NCBI GenBank assembly: GCA_903828975.1
Contig: CAIKOD010000016.1
Coordinates: 1-52,725 of the forward strand
Length of the DNA stretch: 52,725 nt
Source: an uncultured Methanomicrobiales archaeon
GTDB taxonomy: Archaea; Halobacteriota; Methanomicrobia; Methanomicrobiales; Methanospirillaceae
Direction: 5' to 3'
A program made the translations under genes and the position numbers. The first letter of the stretch is position 1; every line of letters starts with the position of its first letter. This document shows positions 8,208 through 17,144 of this stretch, one piece after another. The notes under the pieces are model-generated. The model saw only the letters and a list, made by a program, of their open reading frames with translations, had not been told where the DNA came from and did no database searches.

Positions 8208-8300
8208 AACAATAATGCCTCTATGGGTGTCGTATTCCTATAATGATAGCGATTGCACAACTGTGTTCTTAATTATCAGTGAATAACAACATAATCAACA

Positions 8301-8747
8301 ATGCCCCCGCCAACCCCACCCCTGACCCGCGAACTTACCCATGCTGAATTCCCCCTCGTCAAAGAGGTATGGTACCACTACCACCAGCAGGAAGCCGACC
8401 CTGCAGAAGACCGCATCTTCGGCACCTTTATCGACGGGACGCTCGCTGCGGTAGCGCGTTGCCGGCTTCATCCGGACGGGCACGAAGTCGACGGTGTCTT
8501 TACGCTTGAAGAGTTCCGGGGGCGGGGTCTCGCCAGGCTTGTGGTGCAGGCGCTGATCGATGCCTGCGGGCATGAGGTGCTGTACATGCACTCAACCCTG
8601 CAACTCATCAGTTTCTACAAGACATTCGGCTTTGTTCCTATCCCCGAAGACCAGCTCCCGAAGATGATCAGGGACCGGTTCCTCTTCTGCTTCGGCGAGA
8701 TGGCCGGGTGCAACGTCTGCCCCATGCAGAGGGAGGCGGGAATTTGA
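8301..8747 (+). CDS. GNAT-family N-acetyltransferase, copy 1 (intact)
   Basis: ORF 148 aa with GNAT core 'VDGVFTLEEFRGRGLARLVVQALIDACGHEVLYMHSTLQLISFYKTFGFVPI'. Confidence 0.88.
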   Translation: MPPPTPPLTRELTHAEFPLVKEVWYHYHQQEADPAEDRIFGTFIDGTLAAVARCRLHPDGHEVDGVFTLEEFRGRGLARLVVQALIDACGHEVLYMHSTLQLISFYKTFGFVPIPEDQLPKMIRDRFLFCFGEMAGCNVCPMQREAGI

Positions 8748-8819
8748 ATGGCATTGGGGTGTCAGGAATATAGTCCATGACCCAAAAAAGATAGTGTCGG
8801 TTATTCCGGCACGACATGA

Positions 8820-9048
8820 TTATACTGTAACAGTTTCGATTCTTACTCGGCTGATGATAAACTCGTCATCAACGGGTATCATTTCATTGTCCTCCATTAA
8901 GCAGGAAATATGGAGTTCGATTGCGTCTTTGGTGTTAGCAATCGTCTCTTCAACAGTCTCCCCCTGCGAGAAGAATCCAGAAAGCGCCGGAACTTCAGCC
9001 AAGAACCCGCCTTCTTCAGCTTTTTTGGATAATAACCGTATATTCCAT
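8820..9048 (-). pseudogene. HicB-like antitoxin, frameshifted near the N-terminus
   Basis: Translation 'KKAEEGGFLAEVPALSGFFSQGETVEETIANTKDAIELHISCLMEDNEM...' is near-identical to the ORF at 15355-15582; the ATG at 9048 reads MEYTVII then one extra A in an A6 run breaks the frame. Confidence 0.7.
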
Positions 9049-9087
9049 GGTACTGGCTCTATCTGGTTTAGAGATGAATGAAGATTA

Positions 9088-9312
9088 TCATAACGCGATC
9101 CATTCTTCCCGTGAAATTTCAATCTCCCTGATAATCTCACGGATAAGTCCCACGCTGATATCATTTCCTGAATGCATCGGAATCGGGATGATCTTCTTCA
9201 TTGTCATATGGACCATCCTTTGATGCCTGCCTCCTGGGATAGGGCCAATAAAACCCAGTTTGCGAAGTTTTCTGATTACTTCATTTGTACTGATTGGCGT
9301 CAGTCTCGACAT
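9088..9312 (-). CDS. hicA: HicA-like toxin (start within the longer ORF 9088-9366)
   Basis: MSRLTPISTNEVIRKLRKLGFIGPIPGGRHQRMVHMTMKKIIPIPMHSGNDISVGLIREIIREIEISREEWIAL; typical small HicA/YcfA pattern. Confidence 0.8.
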   Translation of the reverse strand: MSRLTPISTNEVIRKLRKLGFIGPIPGGRHQRMVHMTMKKIIPIPMHSGNDISVGLIREIIREIEISREEWIAL

Positions 9313-9574
9313 ACTGGATAGTAATCCCCTTAATTGGTGGTATCTCAAAGCCGAGCTGAAGTGCAAGAAGGAGATTTCCTATAATAACATCACGTAAATT
9401 CTGTTCTGCCTCTTTTCGCGTATTCCCCTGTGCAAAAAATCCCGGGCATTCAGGTACCTTTCCAATAAAGATACCCTGGTCATCAGGATGATATTCTGCC
9501 CGTTTCAAAGCTTCTTCAACGTAGCCAAGAAGGGGAAAGATCCGAACACTATGAATTGACGCCTGTGCAGACAC
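9281..9574 (-). CDS. hicB: HicB-like antitoxin
   Basis: YHPDDQGIFIGKVPECPGFFAQGNTRKEAEQNLRDVI; overlaps the 5' end of hicA on the same strand. Confidence 0.78.
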   Translation of the reverse strand: MSAQASIHSVRIFPLLGYVEEALKRAEYHPDDQGIFIGKVPECPGFFAQGNTRKEAEQNLRDVIIGNLLLALQLGFEIPPIKGITIQYVETDANQYK

Positions 9575-9669
9575 GGGTACTCATAATAGTGTATGGTTAT
9601 TTGTCCATATACATTCCCCTTCGAGCCACCATTAGGGAGATTGCTCTTCATATTCCAGTCATATAATGA

Positions 9670-10122
9670 ATTCCTCATTCCACAACCCCTATCCCCCTCA
9701 CCCGCGAACTCACCCGTGCCGAATTCCCCCTCGTCAAAGAGGTCTGGTACCATTATCACCAGCAGGAGGTCAACCCCGCTGAAGATCGCATCTTCGGCAC
9801 CTTTATCGACGGGACGCTCGCTGCGGTAGCGCGTTGCCGGCTGCATCCGGACGGGCATGAAGTTGACGGTGTCTTTACGCTTGAAGAGTTCCGGGGGCGG
9901 GGTCTCGCCAGGCTTGTGGTGCAGGCGCTGATCGATGCGTGCGGGCATGAGGTGCTGTACATGCACTCAACCCTGCAGCTCATCAGTTTCTACAAGACAT
10001 TCGGTTTTGTTCCTATCCCTGAGGACCAGCTCCCCCGGATGATCCGGGACCGGTTCCTCTTCTGCTTCGGCGAGATGGCGGGGTGCAACGTCTGCCCGAT
10101 GTGGAGGGAGGCGGGAATTTGA
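9670..10122 (+). pseudogene. GNAT N-acetyltransferase, copy 2 (open body, no in-frame standard start)
   Basis: Frame reads IPHSTTPIPLTRELTRAEFPLVKEVWYHYHQQEVNPAEDRIFG...GCNVCPMWREAGI; in-frame TGA at 9667-9669 and no ATG/GTG/TTG before the GTG at 9916. Confidence 0.75.
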
Positions 10123-10247
10123 ATGACATTGGGGTGTCAGGAATATTTGGCAATAACCTAAAAAAAACACAATCCTAAAAACCACTTTGTTCCCTCTCCC
10201 ATATCTTTATAGAAGCCTCATGCATACGGTAAGCATAAGATTAAATT

Positions 10248-10487
10248 ATGAAATTCTCTATTCTCATCGAACAGGATGAAGACGGCAGGTATGTTGTGGA
10301 ATGCACCGATCTGCCGGGATGCATGACCGAAGGAGAAACGCTCAAGGAAGCAATCGAAAATATCAATGAGGCAATTGTCGGTTGCATCAAGTCCCGGTTG
10401 AAGCTAGCTTCGGATAATATTCACATCACATCCCTGCCTTCCCGCATGAGTATCGATGTCGATACTTCCGGTATAAATTATGCCTAA
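10248..10487 (+). CDS. hicB: HicB-like antitoxin
   Basis: MKFSILIEQDEDGRYVVECTDLPGCMTEGETLKEAIENINEAIVGCIKSRLK. Confidence 0.85.
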   Translation: MKFSILIEQDEDGRYVVECTDLPGCMTEGETLKEAIENINEAIVGCIKSRLKLASDNIHITSLPSRMSIDVDTSGINYA

Positions 10488-10719
10488 ACTCCCGCGATCA
10501 GGCGGGAAAAATCACATCGCTGCATTCAAACGGGCAGGATGGGTGGAGAACCACATTGAGGGCAGCCACCATATCCTGATTAAAGAAGGAAACCCGGTTC
10601 ACCTGTAAATCCCTGTTCATGCCGGACGGGATCTCGGTGTGGGATTGTTATGTAAACTCATTGATAAGGCCGGTATGACCCAAAAGGATTATTGCGCATA
10701 CTTCTATAGGGAAAAATAA
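10480..10719 (+). pseudogene. hicA: HicA-like toxin interrupted by a nonsense codon
   Basis: ATG overlaps the hicB stop; MPKLPRSGGKNHIAAFKRAGWVENHIEGSHHILIKEGNPVHL*IPVHAGRDLGVGLLCKLIDKAGMTQKDYCAYFYREK; TAA at 10606-10608 in frame. Confidence 0.75.
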
Positions 10720-10793
10720 TTATACCTTTTAGAAACAAGGATTGAATCCCACGGTAGCAACAGGTACCGTTTCTCGAATAAAGGTAATATCTC

Positions 10794-11057
10794 ATGATGC
10801 AGGCGCTGATCGATGCGTGCGGGCATGAGGTGCTGTACATGCACTCAACTCTGCAACTCATCAGCTTCTACAAGACATTCGGTTTTGTTCCTATCCCCGA
10901 AGACCAGCTCCCGAAGATGATCAGGGACCGGTTCCTCTTCTGCTTCGGTGAGATGGCCGGGTGCAAACGGTCTGCCCCATGCAGAGGGAGGCGGGAATTT
11001 AAGATGTATTGGAGCGGCGTTTTTTTTACTATCTTACCAATCCGGACAAAGGTATGA
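10794..11057 (+). pseudogene. GNAT N-acetyltransferase, copy 3 (5'-truncated; C-terminal half only)
   Basis: MMQALIDACGHEVLYMHSTLQLISFYKTFGFVPIPEDQLPKMIRDRFLFCFGEMAGC then divergent C-terminus. Confidence 0.85.
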
Positions 11058-11220
11058 TCTTATGCCTGTTACTGTGATAGTGCCATCCATAGACCGGGCA
11101 AGGTTCAATTTGGAAAAGGAGCGGGCGTGAGAGATTACTATTGTCTTTACGAGGATCTCTTGGAATTATCTCTTTTGTTGGGGGAAAATTTGTATAATCT
11201 CATAACTCCAAGATTATAGT

Positions 11221-11445
11221 ATGGAATATACGGTTGTCCTCGAACCACAGGAAGAAGGCGGGTATTTCGTCCAGTGTGTGGAGTTACCCGGGGCCATCAG
11301 CCAGGGGGACTCAAAAGAGGAAGCGCTTACCAATATTAAAGAAGCAATCGAACTTGTTTTAGAAGTCCAGCGCGAAGAACTCCATAAAAAAACAAACATC
11401 TTCCATTCGGAAATTGTCAAAGTAGACGTGGCGAATGTCTCGTAA
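11221..11445 (+). CDS. hicB: HicB-like antitoxin
   Basis: MEYTVVLEPQEEGGYFVQCVELPGAISQGDSKEEALTNIKEAIELVLE. Confidence 0.88.
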   Translation: MEYTVVLEPQEEGGYFVQCVELPGAISQGDSKEEALTNIKEAIELVLEVQREELHKKTNIFHSEIVKVDVANVS

Positions 11446-11656
11446 ACTTCCGGTAATCTCTGGTGAGAAGATGGTCAAGATCCTTGCAAAACAGGGCTTC
11501 GAGATCAGGCGGCAAACTTCAGGTCATATTGTTGTGCAGAAAGAATGGCGGGTATTTGCAGTTCCTCTTCATAATGAGTTGAAGAAAGGGACACTTATGG
11601 CAATTTTGAACCAAGCTGATATAACGGTTGAGGAATTTAAGCAATTTTTTAATTGA
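11435..11656 (+). CDS. hicA: HicA-like toxin
   Basis: MSRKLPVISGEKMVKILAKQGFEIRRQTSGHIVVQKEWRVFAVPLHNELKKGTLMAILNQADITVEEFKQFF; overlaps hicB. Confidence 0.9.
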   Translation: MSRKLPVISGEKMVKILAKQGFEIRRQTSGHIVVQKEWRVFAVPLHNELKKGTLMAILNQADITVEEFKQFFN

Positions 11657-11689
11657 TCTGGTGATACATCAGATTGGCGGAATATCTGA

Positions 11690-12139
11690 TGTGCGGAAAC
11701 CCGTGAACTCACCCGCGCCGAATTCCCCCTCGTCAAGGCGGTCTGGTACCATTATCACCAGCAGGAGGTCAACCCCGCTGAAGATCGCATCTTCGGCACC
11801 TTTATCGACGGGACGCTCGCTGCTGTAGCGCGTTGCAAGCTGCATCCGGACGGGCATGAAGTTGACGGTGTCTTTACGCTTGAAGAGTTCCGGGGGCGGG
11901 GTCTCGCCAGGTTTGTGGTGCAGGCGCTGATCGATGCGTGCGGGCATGAGGTGCTGTACATGCACTCAACCCTGCAACTCATCAGTTTCTACAAGACATT
12001 CGGTTTTGTTCCTATCCCCGAAGACCAGCTCCCGAAGATAATCAGGGACCGGTTCCTCTTCTGCTTCGGCGAAATGGCGGGGTGCAAACGGTCTGCCCGA
12101 TGCGGGGGGAGGCGGGTGGGTGATGATCATTTTGGTTAA
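11690..12139 (+). pseudogene. GNAT N-acetyltransferase, copy 4 (no in-frame standard start)
   Basis: Frame reads ..CAETRELTRAEFPLVKAVWYHYHQQEVNPAEDRIFG... to 12139; in-frame TGA at 11687-11689 directly upstream, first standard start is the internal GTG at 11915. Confidence 0.75.
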
Positions 12140-12154
12140 GATTGGATCCATTTC

Positions 12155-13429
12155 TTAACTATCTTCTGAAAACCATTTCCAGAGGGGGAGATATTGAACT
12201 GTCCCTTTCAGTCCAAACCACTCAGATTCCTCTGTCTTTTCCATATCCTCCGTAAGCATGAGGAGATTTGTGCATGATAAGTCCCTTCCTGCCTTCAGAA
12301 GTGCCCGAATCTCGCGCTCATACGTTTTTTTGGAGGAAATATCAGTACAGACCTGAATGAGTTGTTCAATCCGATGCCCGGCCTGGACTACAAAGTCAAC
12401 TTCCTCCTGCTCCTGGTTTTTCCAGAAATAAATTGCGGTGTCCCCGTTGTATTCCCTGGATTTAAGGGAGATTGCGACCAGGTTTTCATACAATTTTCCC
12501 CGGTTTTCCGAAAACCTGATCGCCTTTGCAGAAATAAAACCATTATCAATACAATAAATCTTTTTATTAAATGCCACCTGTTCCCTTACTTTGTAAGAAA
12601 ACCTGGGAATACTGAAGAAAAGAAACGTTTCTTCAAGGTAATGGAGGTATTTCTTCACCGTGTGAATGCTCCTGGCCGAACTTACTTTAGACAGGGCATT
12701 GTAGGAATATTCATTGCCGACCGTTGAGATCAGGTACGTTGCCAGATCCGCGATTTCCGGCACAAAACGGATACGATATCGCCGTACAATATCTTTGTAA
12801 ATGATCGCGTCAAAGAGTGCAGAAAGGTAATTTCCACCATTTATTTTTTTAATCAGCGGCTCCGGGAACCCTCCCGTCATGACGTAGGTAGCGAGATGTT
12901 CCTTCTTTTCGATGCCGGTGAGAACCCTGCCCTGGATACTCAGGTACTCCCTGAATGAAAATGGAAGGATTGTCTGTTCCAGGTGCCTCCCCGTAAGATG
13001 TGTAGCTAGCTCCTTCGAGAGCAGATTCGAGTTGCTCCCTGTGATATAGAGATGATATCCCTGCCGCTGGAGTCGGTTGACAAACAATTCCCACATAGGA
13101 AGGTTCTGGATTTCATCGAATAAGACCGTCCGGCAGCCGTCATAGACCACATCAATCGCTGAAATCAGTTCGTCATTATCCTGTAATTGGATGAGACGTT
13201 CATCATCAAAGTTCACATATGCGAAATTTCCCTGGCTTTTCAGATGATGAATGGCATAAAAAGACTTACCTGATCTCCTCGGACCTGTGATGACTTTGAC
13301 AAGAGTACCTGTTGAGTCATCGAACTTGATCTCCCTCTTAACGTATGCCTCGTTTTGGATAGTATCCAGTTCACGTTTCTGGATCTCAATAATATCCCGG
13401 ACCGACACAATAAAAATATCATACTGCAC
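12155..13429 (-). CDS. AAA-family ATPase with DUF4143-type C-terminus
   Basis: ORF 424 aa; Walker A 'GPRRSGKS', Walker B 'TVLFDEIQN', 'YITGSNSNLLSKELATHLTGRHLEQTILPFSFREYL', nuclease-like C-terminus 'AIYFWKNQEQEEVDFVVQ'. Confidence 0.9.
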   Translation of the reverse strand: MQYDIFIVSVRDIIEIQKRELDTIQNEAYVKREIKFDDSTGTLVKVITGPRRSGKSFYAIHHLKSQGNFAYVNFDDERLIQLQDNDELISAIDVVYDGCRTVLFDEIQNLPMWELFVNRLQRQGYHLYITGSNSNLLSKELATHLTGRHLEQTILPFSFREYLSIQGRVLTGIEKKEHLATYVMTGGFPEPLIKKINGGNYLSALFDAIIYKDIVRRYRIRFVPEIADLATYLISTVGNEYSYNALSKVSSARSIHTVKKYLHYLEETFLFFSIPRFSYKVREQVAFNKKIYCIDNGFISAKAIRFSENRGKLYENLVAISLKSREYNGDTAIYFWKNQEQEEVDFVVQAGHRIEQLIQVCTDISSKKTYEREIRALLKAGRDLSCTNLLMLTEDMEKTEESEWFGLKGTVQYLPLWKWFSEDS

Positions 13430-13490
13430 AATAATAGATAAAATTATGCATTGTGATATTTTAACTGCACAATTTCTAAAATCCCCTGTT

Positions 13491-13953
13491 AAAGAAGTGT
13501 GGTACCACTACCACCAGCAGGAGGCCGAACCCAGCTGAAGACCGCATCTTCGGCACCTTTATCGACGGGACGCTCGCTGCAGTAGCGCGTTGCAGGCTGC
13601 ATCCGGACGGGCATGAAGTTGACGGTGTCTTTACGCTTGAAGAGTTCCGGGGGCGGGGTCTCGCCAGGCTTGTGGTGCAGGCGCTGATCGATGCTTGCGG
13701 GCATGAGGTGCTGTACATGCACTCAACCCTGCAACTCATCAGTTTCTACAAGACATTCGGTTTTGTTCCTATCCCCGAAGACCAGCTCCCGAAGATAATC
13801 AGGGACCGGTTCCTCTTCTGCTTCGGCGAGATGGCCGGGTGCAAACGGTCTGCCCCATGCGGAGGGAGGCCGGTGGGTGATCCTGGATGCAGTCAGATTA
13901 TGGTAAAAATGTGGAGTGAAAGACCGTGGTTAAAAGGACGATCAGGGAAATAA
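13491..13953 (+). pseudogene. GNAT N-acetyltransferase, copy 5 (5'-truncated, frameshifted)
   Basis: Homology begins at VKEVWYHYHQQEAEP; +1 shift gives TGA at 13536-13538; body continues in another frame to KRSAPCGGRPVGD. Confidence 0.85.
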
Positions 13954-13990
13954 TTATTGTTAGGTGTGATAGAATAGGAATTGAGAATAA

Positions 13991-14284
13991 ATGACACCCC
14001 GCGATGAAATCCTCGATCTCCTCAGATCATTACAAAGCGATCTTACCGTACGGTATAAAGTCCGCAGGATCGGAATATTCGGCTCTTTTGCAAGAATTGA
14101 GTCCAGGCCTGATAGTGATGTGGACATACTCGTTGATTTTAATCCCGGCGCGGACCTCTTCGATCTCATTGAACTCTCTCAGTACCTGGAAGAAAAAATC
14201 GGCAGGCATGTGGACCTGGCAACACCCCGGGCACTCAGGCCTGAGATACGGGAAAGCGTCTTCCGGGACGTTGTGTACGCATGA
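13991..14284 (+). CDS. mntA: MntA-type nucleotidyltransferase antitoxin
   Basis: GIFGSFARIESRPDSDVDILVDF motif (GSxAR...DxDxxV). Confidence 0.88.
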   Translation: MTPRDEILDLLRSLQSDLTVRYKVRRIGIFGSFARIESRPDSDVDILVDFNPGADLFDLIELSQYLEEKIGRHVDLATPRALRPEIRESVFRDVVYA

Positions 14285-14619
14285 GAGAATACCGCCTTTT
14301 CCTGGTTGATATTATTAAGGCCGCAGAAGACATCGAGGCCTTCACCACGGGGATGTCTTTTAAAGAATTCGTTGACGATGACAAGACAATTTCGGCCGTA
14401 CTCTATAAGTTTGCAATTATGGGAGAGGCAACAAAAATGCTTCCCGATGAGGTCCGTGCAGAATATCCAGACATTCCCTGGCGAAGCATCGCAGGATTGC
14501 GTGACAAAGTGATTCATGGGTATATTGGTGTGGATTATGAACTCCTGTGGGAGACAATTGAGTTGAAAATTCCCGCTGTCATAAGATGTCTGCACACCGT
14601 CCTTGAAAAAGAGAAATGA
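14281..14619 (+). CDS. hepT: HEPN/DUF86 toxin (HepT-like)
   Basis: WRSIAGLRDKVIHGYIGVDYELLWETI matches the HEPN RxxxxH pattern (RDKVIH); overlaps mntA. Confidence 0.88.
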   Translation: MREYRLFLVDIIKAAEDIEAFTTGMSFKEFVDDDKTISAVLYKFAIMGEATKMLPDEVRAEYPDIPWRSIAGLRDKVIHGYIGVDYELLWETIELKIPAVIRCLHTVLEKEK

Positions 14620-14680
14620 TGCAGAATAAAATAATCCGGACATATATACACTCATGTTGACCATGATCCAGGTACAATTA

Positions 14681-14729
14681 CCTTCTGAAAACCATTTCCA
14701 GAGAGGTAATTATTCAATTCAAACCACAT
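14681..14729 (-). pseudogene. Remnant of the 3' end of a second DUF4143-type ATPase gene
   Basis: 'ttctgaaaaccatttccagagaggtaattattcaattcaaaccac' aligns by eye to the 3' coding end at 12172-12222 ('ttctgaaaaccatttccagagggggagatattgaactgtccctttcagtccaaaccac'). Confidence 0.6.
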
Positions 14730-14803
14730 TTTCCACTATCTTTTTAATATCCTTCTAAAAATGAGAGGACTATTTGGAGCAACCAACAGGAAAATGTAAA
14801 TGA

Positions 14804-15279
14804 TTGCTCTTCATGCATTCCTGTCATATCACGAATTCCTCTTTCCCCCCACTCACCCGCGAACTCACCTATGCGGAATTCCCCCTCGTCAAAGAGGTCT
14901 GGTACCATTATCACCAGCAGGAGGTCAACCCCGCTGAAGATCGCATCTTCGGCACCTTTATCGACGGGACGCTCGCTGCGGTAGCGCGTTGCAGGTTTCA
15001 TCCGGACGGGCACGAAGTTGACGGTGTCTTTACGCTTTGAAGAATTCCGTGGGCGTGGCCTCGCCAGGCTCATGGTGCAGGCATTGATAGACGCCTGCGG
15101 GCACGAGGTGCTGTTTATGCATTCAACCCTGCAACTTCATCAGTTTCTACAAGACATTCGGTTTTGTTCCTATCCCTGAGGACCAGCTTCCCCGGATGAT
15201 CCGGGACCGGTTCCTCTTCTGCTTCGGCGAGATGGCCGGGTGCAACGTCTGGCCCATGCAGGGGGAGACGGGAATCTGA
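14804..15279 (+). pseudogene. GNAT N-acetyltransferase, copy 6 (two frameshifts)
   Basis: Extra T gives 'tttacgctttga' stop at 15038-15040; a second extra T in 'ctgcaacttcatcag' near 15135; ends GCNVWPMQGETGI*. Confidence 0.85.
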
Positions 15280-15354
15280 ATAGTATTGGAGGTGTCAGAA
15301 TACCGGCTAATGACATTAAAAAAGATGGTATCTGTTGTTCCTGGTACGAAGTAA

Positions 15355-15582
15355 TTATACCGTAACAGTTTCGATTCTCACACGGCTGATAATGAACTCA
15401 TCATCAATTGGGACCATTTCATTATCCTCCATTAAACAGGCGATATGGAGTTCAATTGCGTCCTTTGTGTTCGTAATCGTCTCCTCAACAGTCTCCCCCT
15501 GCGAAAAGCATCCAGAAAGTGCCGGAACTTCGGCCCAGAACCCGCCTTCTTCAGCCTTGTGAATTATAATCGTATATTCCAT
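15355..15582 (-). CDS. hicB: HicB-like antitoxin
   Basis: MEYTIIIHKAEEGGFWAEVPALSGCFSQGETVEETITNTKDAIELHIACLMEDNEMVPIDDEFIISRVRIETVTV. Confidence 0.83.
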   Translation of the reverse strand: MEYTIIIHKAEEGGFWAEVPALSGCFSQGETVEETITNTKDAIELHIACLMEDNEMVPIDDEFIISRVRIETVTV

Positions 15583-15593
15583 GATTTTCCCAT

Positions 15594-15794
15594 TTATAGT
15601 AGATTTTCAAATGCCTTCTCTGTTAATCCCGCTTTTTTGATCGCTGCTTTCAGGAGTCCGATTTTTACTTCTCCTGATACCGGAATGGTGATCAATTATC
15701 CGTTCGGCATTTTAATATTCACATGATCCCCTTTACCCTGGCGAACCATTCCACCCGCATTCACGAATGCCCGGACTGCATCTTTTCCTTTCAC
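15594..15794 (-). pseudogene. hicA: HicA-like toxin with in-frame nonsense codon
   Basis: Reverse strand reads VKGKDAVRAFVNAGGMVRQGKGDHVNIKMPNG*LITIPVSGEVKIGLLKAAIKKAGLTEKAFENLL; TAA at 15698-15696. Confidence 0.75.
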
Positions 15795-15980
15795 GTTGTG
15801 GAATGAGGTCACCTTTCACGTTCCAATTAGCATTGTTGGGTTTTCTCATTCATCATCTTTGTTATGTGCTGAATGTGGTTGGGTTACTATGATTAGGCTT
15901 GGTGGTCTCAATCCCTCTACATTCGTTGCGAGTACAGGGGTGTTAATTAATGAAAAACGGTTGGGATGATGTTCCCTGGT

Positions 15981-16529: not shown

Positions 16530-17144
16530 ATGGTACATCCCGCAACTCAAATCCCCTCATTTTCTGATGCAGTACAGTTCCACGGTCATACCTGTCCCGG
16601 TCTTGCACTTGGTTACCGGGCAGCATTAATCGCCCTCGAAGAGCTCAGGAGCGACCCATCACATGACGAAGAACTGGTCGCAGTCGTGGAGAATGATGCA
16701 TGTGGGATCGATGCCCTCCAGGTCGTCACCGGGTGCACGGCGGGGAAGGGAAACCTCATCTTCCTCGACTACGGGAAACATGTTTATACCCTGATCAACC
16801 GGCGGAAGGGGAAAGCGGTCCGGGTTGCTACGAAGCCCTCATTCTCAACGGCATCTCTCGATCCGGCATTTGGTGATCTCAGGTCAAAGGTGATGTCAGG
16901 GAACGCAACAGCCGAAGAACTGGAAGAATTCGAAAAACACCGCGATGCGGTCTGTCAGGCAATTCTCACGGTCCCTTATCCTGAACTTTTTTCTGTCCGG
17001 CGTGTGGATATGCAGGTCCCTGCTACGGCAACGATATACAAATCCGTTCCCTGTGACTGCTGTGGCGAGATGGTATCAGAACACAGGGCAATAACCGTGA
17101 GCGGGAATACACTCTGCATTCCGTGTTCGAAGAAAAAAGAGTAA
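16530..17144 (+). CDS. FmdE-family protein (formylmethanofuran dehydrogenase subunit E-like) with C-terminal zinc finger
   Basis: FHGHTCPGLALGYRAA motif; ACGIDALQVVTGCTAGKGNL; C-terminal CDCCGE...CIPC. Confidence 0.88.
   Translation: MVHPATQIPSFSDAVQFHGHTCPGLALGYRAALIALEELRSDPSHDEELVAVVENDACGIDALQVVTGCTAGKGNLIFLDYGKHVYTLINRRKGKAVRVATKPSFSTASLDPAFGDLRSKVMSGNATAEELEEFEKHRDAVCQAILTVPYPELFSVRRVDMQVPATATIYKSVPCDCCGEMVSEHRAITVSGNTLCIPCSKKKE

Follow-up and report, generated by a model that had tools for sequence, protein, structure and literature searches.

A 52,725-nt contig of an uncultured Methanomicrobiales archaeon (CAIKOD010000016.1, here C16; analysed over its full length and called the window) carries six direct copies of a gene for a GNAT acetyltransferase, which alternate with toxin-antitoxin (TA) and defence-type modules. 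We consider, at a probability of roughly 0.55, that this GNAT gene is a vertically inherited chromosomal gene that has served as a recombination anchor, or "docking gene", at which TA/defence cassettes were stacked one by one. The observations behind this explanation are the layout of the array, its recurrence, the empty sites in relatives, the clustering of GNAT copies by genome, the low interspecies divergence of the cassettes, and the purifying selection in the start-less GNAT bodies. The window belongs to a 2.58-Mb assembly with a completeness of 98% (genome G000), and all genomes compared were metagenome-assembled genomes (MAGs).

The six copies, designated c1 to c6, lie on the + strand between positions 8301 and 15279 and are the only DNA copies of the gene in the assembly. 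Between 8.3 and 15.8 kb, they are interspersed with HicBA, DUF4143-ATPase, and MntA/HepT modules, and they have a GC content of 56-60%, compared with 42-44% in the gaps. Over shared columns, c1 to c5 had pairwise identities of 89-94%, while c6 was 86-87% identical to the others. Of the six, c1 alone is intact and has a usual start codon, since c2 to c6 lack such a start, are truncated, or are frameshifted; the frame of c2 is open, but contains no ATG, GTG, or TTG before approximately codon 80. A 38-nt string is identical in c1, c2, c4, c5, and c6, and the alignment showed that c3 begins past it. A preliminary description of this DNA had reported the six same-strand copies, the 38-nt string, and the lack of a visible integrase, transposase, or recombinase, all of which were borne out, the last as regards integrases, for the entire contig and every related GNAT locus examined. 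The same description held that each gap contains a different module. The alternating layout stands, but the hicB genes after c1 and after c6 form, together with the GNAT copies preceding them, a near-duplicate block (8315-9049 and 14845-15583) with 87% identity. From c1 to c6, the gaps contain hicB and hicBA (-), hicB with a nonsense hicA (+), hicBA (+), an AAA_14/DUF4143 ATPase (-), and MntA/HepT (+), followed to the right of c6 by hicB and a hicA with a nonsense codon (-). GNAT copies flank every gap here, as they also do in other genera. The gene upstream of c1 is an unrelated membrane/pilin-like open reading frame (ORF). An Rfam search near the array and a tRNA scan of the window returned nothing at the array.

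Extra GNAT copies or remnants were present in all four genomes of the genus (g1), with the cassettes in differing combinations. An assembly artefact, which the preliminary description had named as fatal to its interpretation, was rejected because the same architecture is present in three further MAGs. Its proposal that the GNAT gene is a repeated anchor accumulating TA-type cassettes is largely supported. In G001, the order was a pilin-like gene, intact GNAT, hicBA, a GNAT 3′ remnant of about 60 bp, and FmdE. A short contig of G002 contains MntA/HepT, hicBA, GNAT, a YafQ-like toxin with an upstream partner ORF, and GNAT, and its second contig contains GNAT, ParE/Phd, GNAT, hicBA, a GNAT remnant, a binding protein, and an RNase J-like gene. 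G003 has pilin-like genes, intact GNAT, a helix-turn-helix (HTH)-nucleotidyltransferase/HEPN module, and GNAT, as well as a further piece with GNAT, a DUF4143 remnant, GNAT, and an RNase J-like gene. The cargo families in relatives were ParE/Phd, YafQ-like, HEPN/nucleotidyltransferase, and RhuM. The contigs of G002 and G003 tend to stop in or near the array, as repeats predict, and these breaks hide the full arrays. Wherever the upstream end was assembled, the intact GNAT was the most upstream copy, and the extra copies lay downstream in direct orientation and without a start. Since cassette-GNAT junctions are held in common (window 9074-10132 with G002; window 13357-13836 with G003) and the frameshift marker GCAAACGG is shared by three species, part of the array must have arisen before the species separated.

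The GNAT gene is family-wide, with a relative in 91 of 108 genomes. A degenerate DNA pattern built on the conserved 3′ end detected the close subfamily in 40 genomes, 36 of them outside g1; this pattern needs an undecayed motif and therefore misses decayed remnants, and an earlier exact 46-nt pattern had been too narrow. With the degenerate pattern, a second copy was detected in three of these 36 genomes (G012, G020, and G057), 0.9-1.4 kb downstream and on the same strand. At this sensitivity, no dispersed copies were found elsewhere beyond G014 and G066, each with two copies on separate contigs, and the G066 pair looks like strain redundancy. The UBA11803 contigs L043 and L045 were considered as a candidate array and rejected, being 92.4% alike over 2.8 kb including their flanks, which also indicates strain redundancy. 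Most single copies adjoin core genes such as uvrB, without TA genes.

Three further genera of Methanoregulaceae show an intact GNAT with cassette genes behind it and, beyond these, a direct GNAT 3′ remnant of 66-146 bp. At locus L117 (G020), a ribbon-helix-helix (RHH)-type antitoxin and a RelE-like ORF lie between GNAT and remnant, the toxin having no Pfam match and being named by eye. At L065, from the same species as G057 according to match coordinates and spacing, RhuM lies between the intact GNAT and the 146-bp remnant. The insert at L118 (G012) comprises a zinc-ribbon ORF and a membrane protein of unassigned family, and is at most a possible TA cassette. Single-GNAT sites free of a cassette, which the preliminary description had suggested looking for, were found in G031 and G016. 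A methylase region follows GNAT after 19 bp in G031, while the same place in G020 holds about 1.9 kb with RHH/RelE, a GNAT 3′ remnant, and a nucleotidyltransferase; the uvrB region follows after about 30 bp in G016, while G012 holds 2.35 kb there. An intact upstream GNAT, a direct 3′ remnant, and an empty site in relatives were found together for L117 versus L132 and for L118 versus L127. At L117 and L065, the remnant passes directly into the native downstream flank known from relatives, and a different flank adjoins the intact GNAT, as a single crossover predicts.

The tree of GNAT copies groups by genome and not by array position. The approximately unbiased (AU) test rejected the positional orthologues c2+G002_C356a (p = 2.7e-62) and c4+G003_C125a (p = 0.0014). 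Cassettes and GNAT copies follow different histories. Between the window and G002, the synonymous divergence (dS) was 0.20 (0.14-0.27) for the hicBA and mntA/hepT cassettes versus 0.45 (0.40-0.50) for neighbouring core genes, and between G001 and G002 it was 0.26 (0.16-0.37) for hicBA versus 0.68 (0.61-0.75) for core genes, the cassette values being based on 337 and 153 TA codons. GNAT c1 and G002_C356b had a dS of 0.77. The twelve core genes ranged from 0.37 to 0.75, and a thirteenth ORF with a dS of 0.28, antisense to hisG, was set aside from the core set. A codon-composition artefact was rejected as the source of the low cassette dS, since a low GC content at third codon positions does not lower dS here (correlation -0.49). 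Because cassette dS lies below core-gene dS, the cassettes were probably exchanged between species of the genus after these had separated. In pairs among c1 to c5, dN/dS was at most 0.16, and c1 and c2 differed by 4.5 nonsynonymous changes, compared with 39.7 expected if one copy had been dead since their split (P = 6e-13). Having diverged under purifying selection, the start-less bodies c2 to c5 must until recently have functioned as genes or been copied from functioning ones. The preliminary description had missed that the intact gene is the first copy only, that the further copies resemble displaced bodies, and that cassettes probably crossed species borders.

Serial displacement is the simplest history, because the start-less bodies were working until recently, the intact gene lies upstream, and the remnant carries the native flank. 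Incoming DNA, probably circular, would bring a cassette with a GNAT body or at least a GNAT 3′ end. A single crossover in the resident GNAT would place the incoming body behind the promoter, start, and 5′ part of the resident gene, so that a working gene would be kept, and the displaced old body would remain downstream of the cassette without a start. Recombination among the direct GNAT repeats could later cut out, duplicate, exchange, and homogenise both cassettes and copies. The most likely agent is the homologous recombination of the cell (RadA), which explains the variable overlap, the insertion at inner copies, and the homogenisation. A site-specific recombinase acting in trans is possible, and is kept open mainly because the junctions cluster.

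Several points weigh against this history. The AU test did not reject the positional pair c5+G003_C125b (p = 0.16), which includes a long branch. Clustering by genome and low dN/dS could also stem from gene conversion without displacement, although gene conversion alone could not mimic the low cassette dS. A donor-mosaic test on the 3′ ends of intact GNAT genes gave weak hints, in L117 only, and L065, apart from its remnant and flank, has no clean empty site to be compared with. Remnants of about 24-146 bp would be poor RadA substrates unless they have decayed. The junctions are also non-random, with a cluster of about 8 nt in three genera and the joining of five cassette types in g1 within about 24 nt of the GNAT start, which a preferred site fits better than plain homology, with the qualification that L065 does not share this site. 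Because the downstream copy C356b of G002 is less decayed than the copy preceding it, growth was not strictly from one end. Finally, this analysis, made on MAGs without reads, revealed no circular form, no transfer event, and no polymorphism at read level.

Local tandem duplication followed by decay would require neither circles nor interspecies exchange, as [GNAT + TA] units would have been duplicated by unequal recombination in an ancestor, new TA modules dropped into the gaps, and subsets kept by the species. The local position of all extra GNAT copies agrees with it, as do the second, decayed RHH antitoxin after the remnant in L117, which duplication would leave, and the part of the array that predates the species. 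We nevertheless regard it as rather unlikely, as it accounts neither for a cassette dS below half of the core dS nor for start-less bodies under purifying selection instead of drift, while the gaps hold unrelated modules and the cassettes common to the window and its relatives occur in different combinations. Another route would be integration at an att-like site in GNAT, carried out in trans by a recombinase, in the manner of gene-end islands that restore their target. In three genera, the starts of the short remnants fall within about 8 nt of one another, directly ahead of the R-F-L-F-C-F codons near the 3′ end and next to the near-palindrome GGAACGGTTCC; the gene is restored upstream with a remnant downstream, and nine tyrosine recombinase genes are present elsewhere in G000. 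Such integration is unlikely given that no recombinase was found in any cassette or related GNAT locus examined, the overlap length lies anywhere between about 24 and 430 bp, both the g1 copies and the L065 remnant begin at other places, and the nine recombinases all fail to score as integron integrases.

Two further explanations concern the role of the GNAT gene itself. GNAT toxins are a known kind, and TA genes always adjoin GNAT in genus g1, as would be expected if GNAT were a functional part of a mobile TA unit, such as a toxin or accessory enzyme. This alternative, which the preliminary description had raised for each cassette, is close to refuted: c2 to c6 lack the usual start or are broken, 33 of the 36 subfamily genomes outside g1 have no detected downstream second copy, their single copies lie mostly beside core genes, GNAT had no PADLOC or NCBIfam match, and the searches made found none in viral contigs or plasmids. 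No RHH antitoxin partner, as in toxins of the TacT/AtaT type, lies beside c1 in the window. The idea that GNAT is a mobile cassette gene was likewise rejected, as neither dispersed copies, at the sensitivity of the degenerate pattern, nor a plasmid or viral-contig match came up in the searches made. TA modules generally cluster in defence islands, and a permissive intergenic hot spot with incidental GNAT copies would accommodate the single-GNAT loci L041 and L047, where an RHH-type antitoxin-like ORF lies nearby without a GNAT duplicate. It is very improbable in view of the bounding of every gap in the window, and of gaps in other genera, by GNAT copies and of the different histories of cassettes and GNAT copies.

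The features of the array are listed in Table 1. Two hicA toxins, after c2 and after c6, have internal stops while the neighbouring hicB antitoxins are open, which is the order expected for a decaying TA module, and a third hicB (8820-9041) has no hicA at all.

Table 1. Coordinates of GNAT copies and cassette genes in the window
Feature	Position	Strand	Evidence
GNAT c1, intact 148-aa acetyltransferase gene, sole copy with its own start	8301..8747	+	ORF; Pfam PF00583, E = 3.8e-12
hicB antitoxin without hicA (cassette remnant), near-copy of hicB right of c6	8820..9041	-	Pfam HicB_lk_antitox; 87% block match
hicA toxin, first hicBA cassette	9088..9309	-	Pfam PF07927; hicBA 92.6% DNA identity with G002
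hicB antitoxin, first hicBA cassette	9281..9574	-	Pfam UPF0150
GNAT c2, open frame, no usual start codon	9694..10122	+	DNA copy search; translation
hicB antitoxin, second cassette	10248..10487	+	Pfam; homologous segment without GNAT in G014:C102, 89%
hicA, second cassette, inactivated by internal TAA	10481..10719	+	Translation
GNAT c3, 3′ half only, 3′ frameshift marker GCAAACGG	10795..11000	+	Alignment; translation
hicB antitoxin, third cassette	11221..11445	+	Pfam
hicA toxin, third cassette	11435..11656	+	Pfam PF07927
GNAT c4, no start, 3′ frameshift marker	11699..12116	+	Alignment; translation
AAA_14/DUF4143 ATPase cassette, PADLOC candidate PDC-S01	12155..13429	-	Pfam; PADLOC, E = 2.9e-104
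GNAT c5, 5′ and 3′ frameshifts	13483..13873	+	Alignment; translation
MntA-type nucleotidyltransferase antitoxin	13991..14284	+	Pfam PF01909; NCBIfam MntA, E = 3.8e-12, below NCBIfam cut-off
HepT-like RNase toxin	14281..14619	+	Pfam PF01934, E = 3.5e-25
DUF4143 gene 3′-end remnant, 42 bp, before c6	14676..14717	-	83% to 12157-12198
GNAT c6, two frameshifts, most divergent copy	14845..15279	+	Alignment; translation
hicB antitoxin, right-hand cassette	15355..15582	-	ORF; near-copy of 8820-9041
hicA, right-hand cassette, inactivated by internal stop	15587..15798	-	Translation

The right flank of the array varies, with an FmdE-like gene in the window genome and G001 and an RNase J-like gene in G002 and G003 (window 16530-17144; L092 2493-3107; L095 6283-6897; L089 1174-2511; L090 4438-5775). 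The FmdE locus of G003 has no array. A rearrangement breakpoint, seen in the differing right flanks of the species, sits at the array. In genus g9 (L117 2490-3133, L126, L130, L132, and L133), the region downstream of GNAT forms a stepwise series, from empty, through a nucleotidyltransferase module and an RHH antitoxin with a nucleotidyltransferase, to a duplicated RHH with a GNAT remnant. Contig C68 of G014 (L112, 204-4478 onward) contains three g1-type GNAT pieces with ParE/Phd, a Schlafen/AlbA_2-like protein, and hicB, and these pieces directly adjoin tandem repeats resembling a CRISPR array and genes resembling type I-E Cascade. Its ParE/Phd part is 94.6% identical to G002 with a dS of 0.17, and another G014 contig has a dS of 1.44 to the window. 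C68 represents either an inter-genus transfer or a mis-binned contig and was left out of the evidence. In another genus, G071:C2:1021889-1035524 carries three diverged GNAT paralogues, 50-55% identical to c1 and about 6.6 kb apart. The best solved structural relative of the GNAT protein is the putative acetyltransferase 3ec4. Two tyrosine recombinase genes of G000 occupy the same coordinates (223-726) near the ends of contigs C136 and C11 and are probably copies of one element.

The cargo corresponds to type II and MNT-HEPN TA modules, with adjacent toxin and antitoxin genes of known families (HicA/HicB and MntA/HepT by Pfam). Archaeal integrons and clusters of attC sites lacking integron integrases (CALINs) have been described (Ghaly et al., 2022; PMC9668308). 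As in these systems, including the TA-rich superintegrons of Vibrio, unrelated short cassettes, many of them TA modules, are separated by a repeat, and the only intact copy lies at one fixed end. Here, however, a protein-coding gene of about 430 bp takes the place of a folded attC as the repeat, and the cassettes occur in either orientation. No hit to the IntI model TIGR02249 exceeded the 265-bit cut-off in any of four genomes, the best reaching 49.7 bits off the window contig. A consensus test for attC pairs (RYYYAAC ... GTTRRRY), made on both strands of 8300-15800 without a covariance model, found none, and nothing similar to the nine G000 integrases was present in the window or any related GNAT locus. 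Despite the small cassettes separated by a repeated element, an integron or CALIN was therefore rejected on IntI and the attC consensus.

SCC elements in rlmH and islands in tRNA genes are gene-end islands that restore their target gene. The intact gene restored upstream, the direct 3′-end remnant on the far side, and the possibility of serial insertions are common to these islands and the GNAT loci, whereas the inserts here are about 0.6-2.4 kb, contain no integrase or recombinase, and are accompanied by a repeat of about 24 to 430 bp. As regards a fixed crossover core, the short remnants of three genera cluster, whereas L065 and the g1 copies do not. By analogy of form, the closest parallel is the start-less mafB-CT silent cassettes, which occur with immunity genes in the maf islands of Neisseria (PMC4287609). 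There too, an intact gene is followed downstream by partial copies of it that lack a start and are interspersed with small genes of toxin/immunity type, but the repeated gene is itself the toxin, while here it is an apparently unrelated acetyltransferase and the TA genes are cargo. Gene conversion of mtrA copies in Methanomicrobiales (PMC4632066) likewise makes copies within a genome more alike than positional orthologues; the GNAT copies differ in that TA cassettes stand between them and most of them are bodies without a start.

It is poorly understood how small TA modules that lack an integrase are mobilised and accumulate. Searches of an open-access library for TA arrays in Methanoregula gave nothing on this locus. 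We tentatively suggest, as a possibility, that Methanoregulaceae harbour an undescribed, integrase-free platform for cassette capture, in which an acetyltransferase gene would be both the docking site and the mark of insertion, each capture would replace the gene body and push the old body down the stack, and TA cassettes would move between species, possibly at a preferred site in the gene. The locus offers a countable record, since every step leaves behind a displaced gene body with a datable decay, and the histories of cassette and anchor can be separated. If confirmed, it would represent an archaeal integron-like cassette stack built via homologous recombination at an ordinary gene, and the exchange of TA cassettes between methanogen species would become directly testable.

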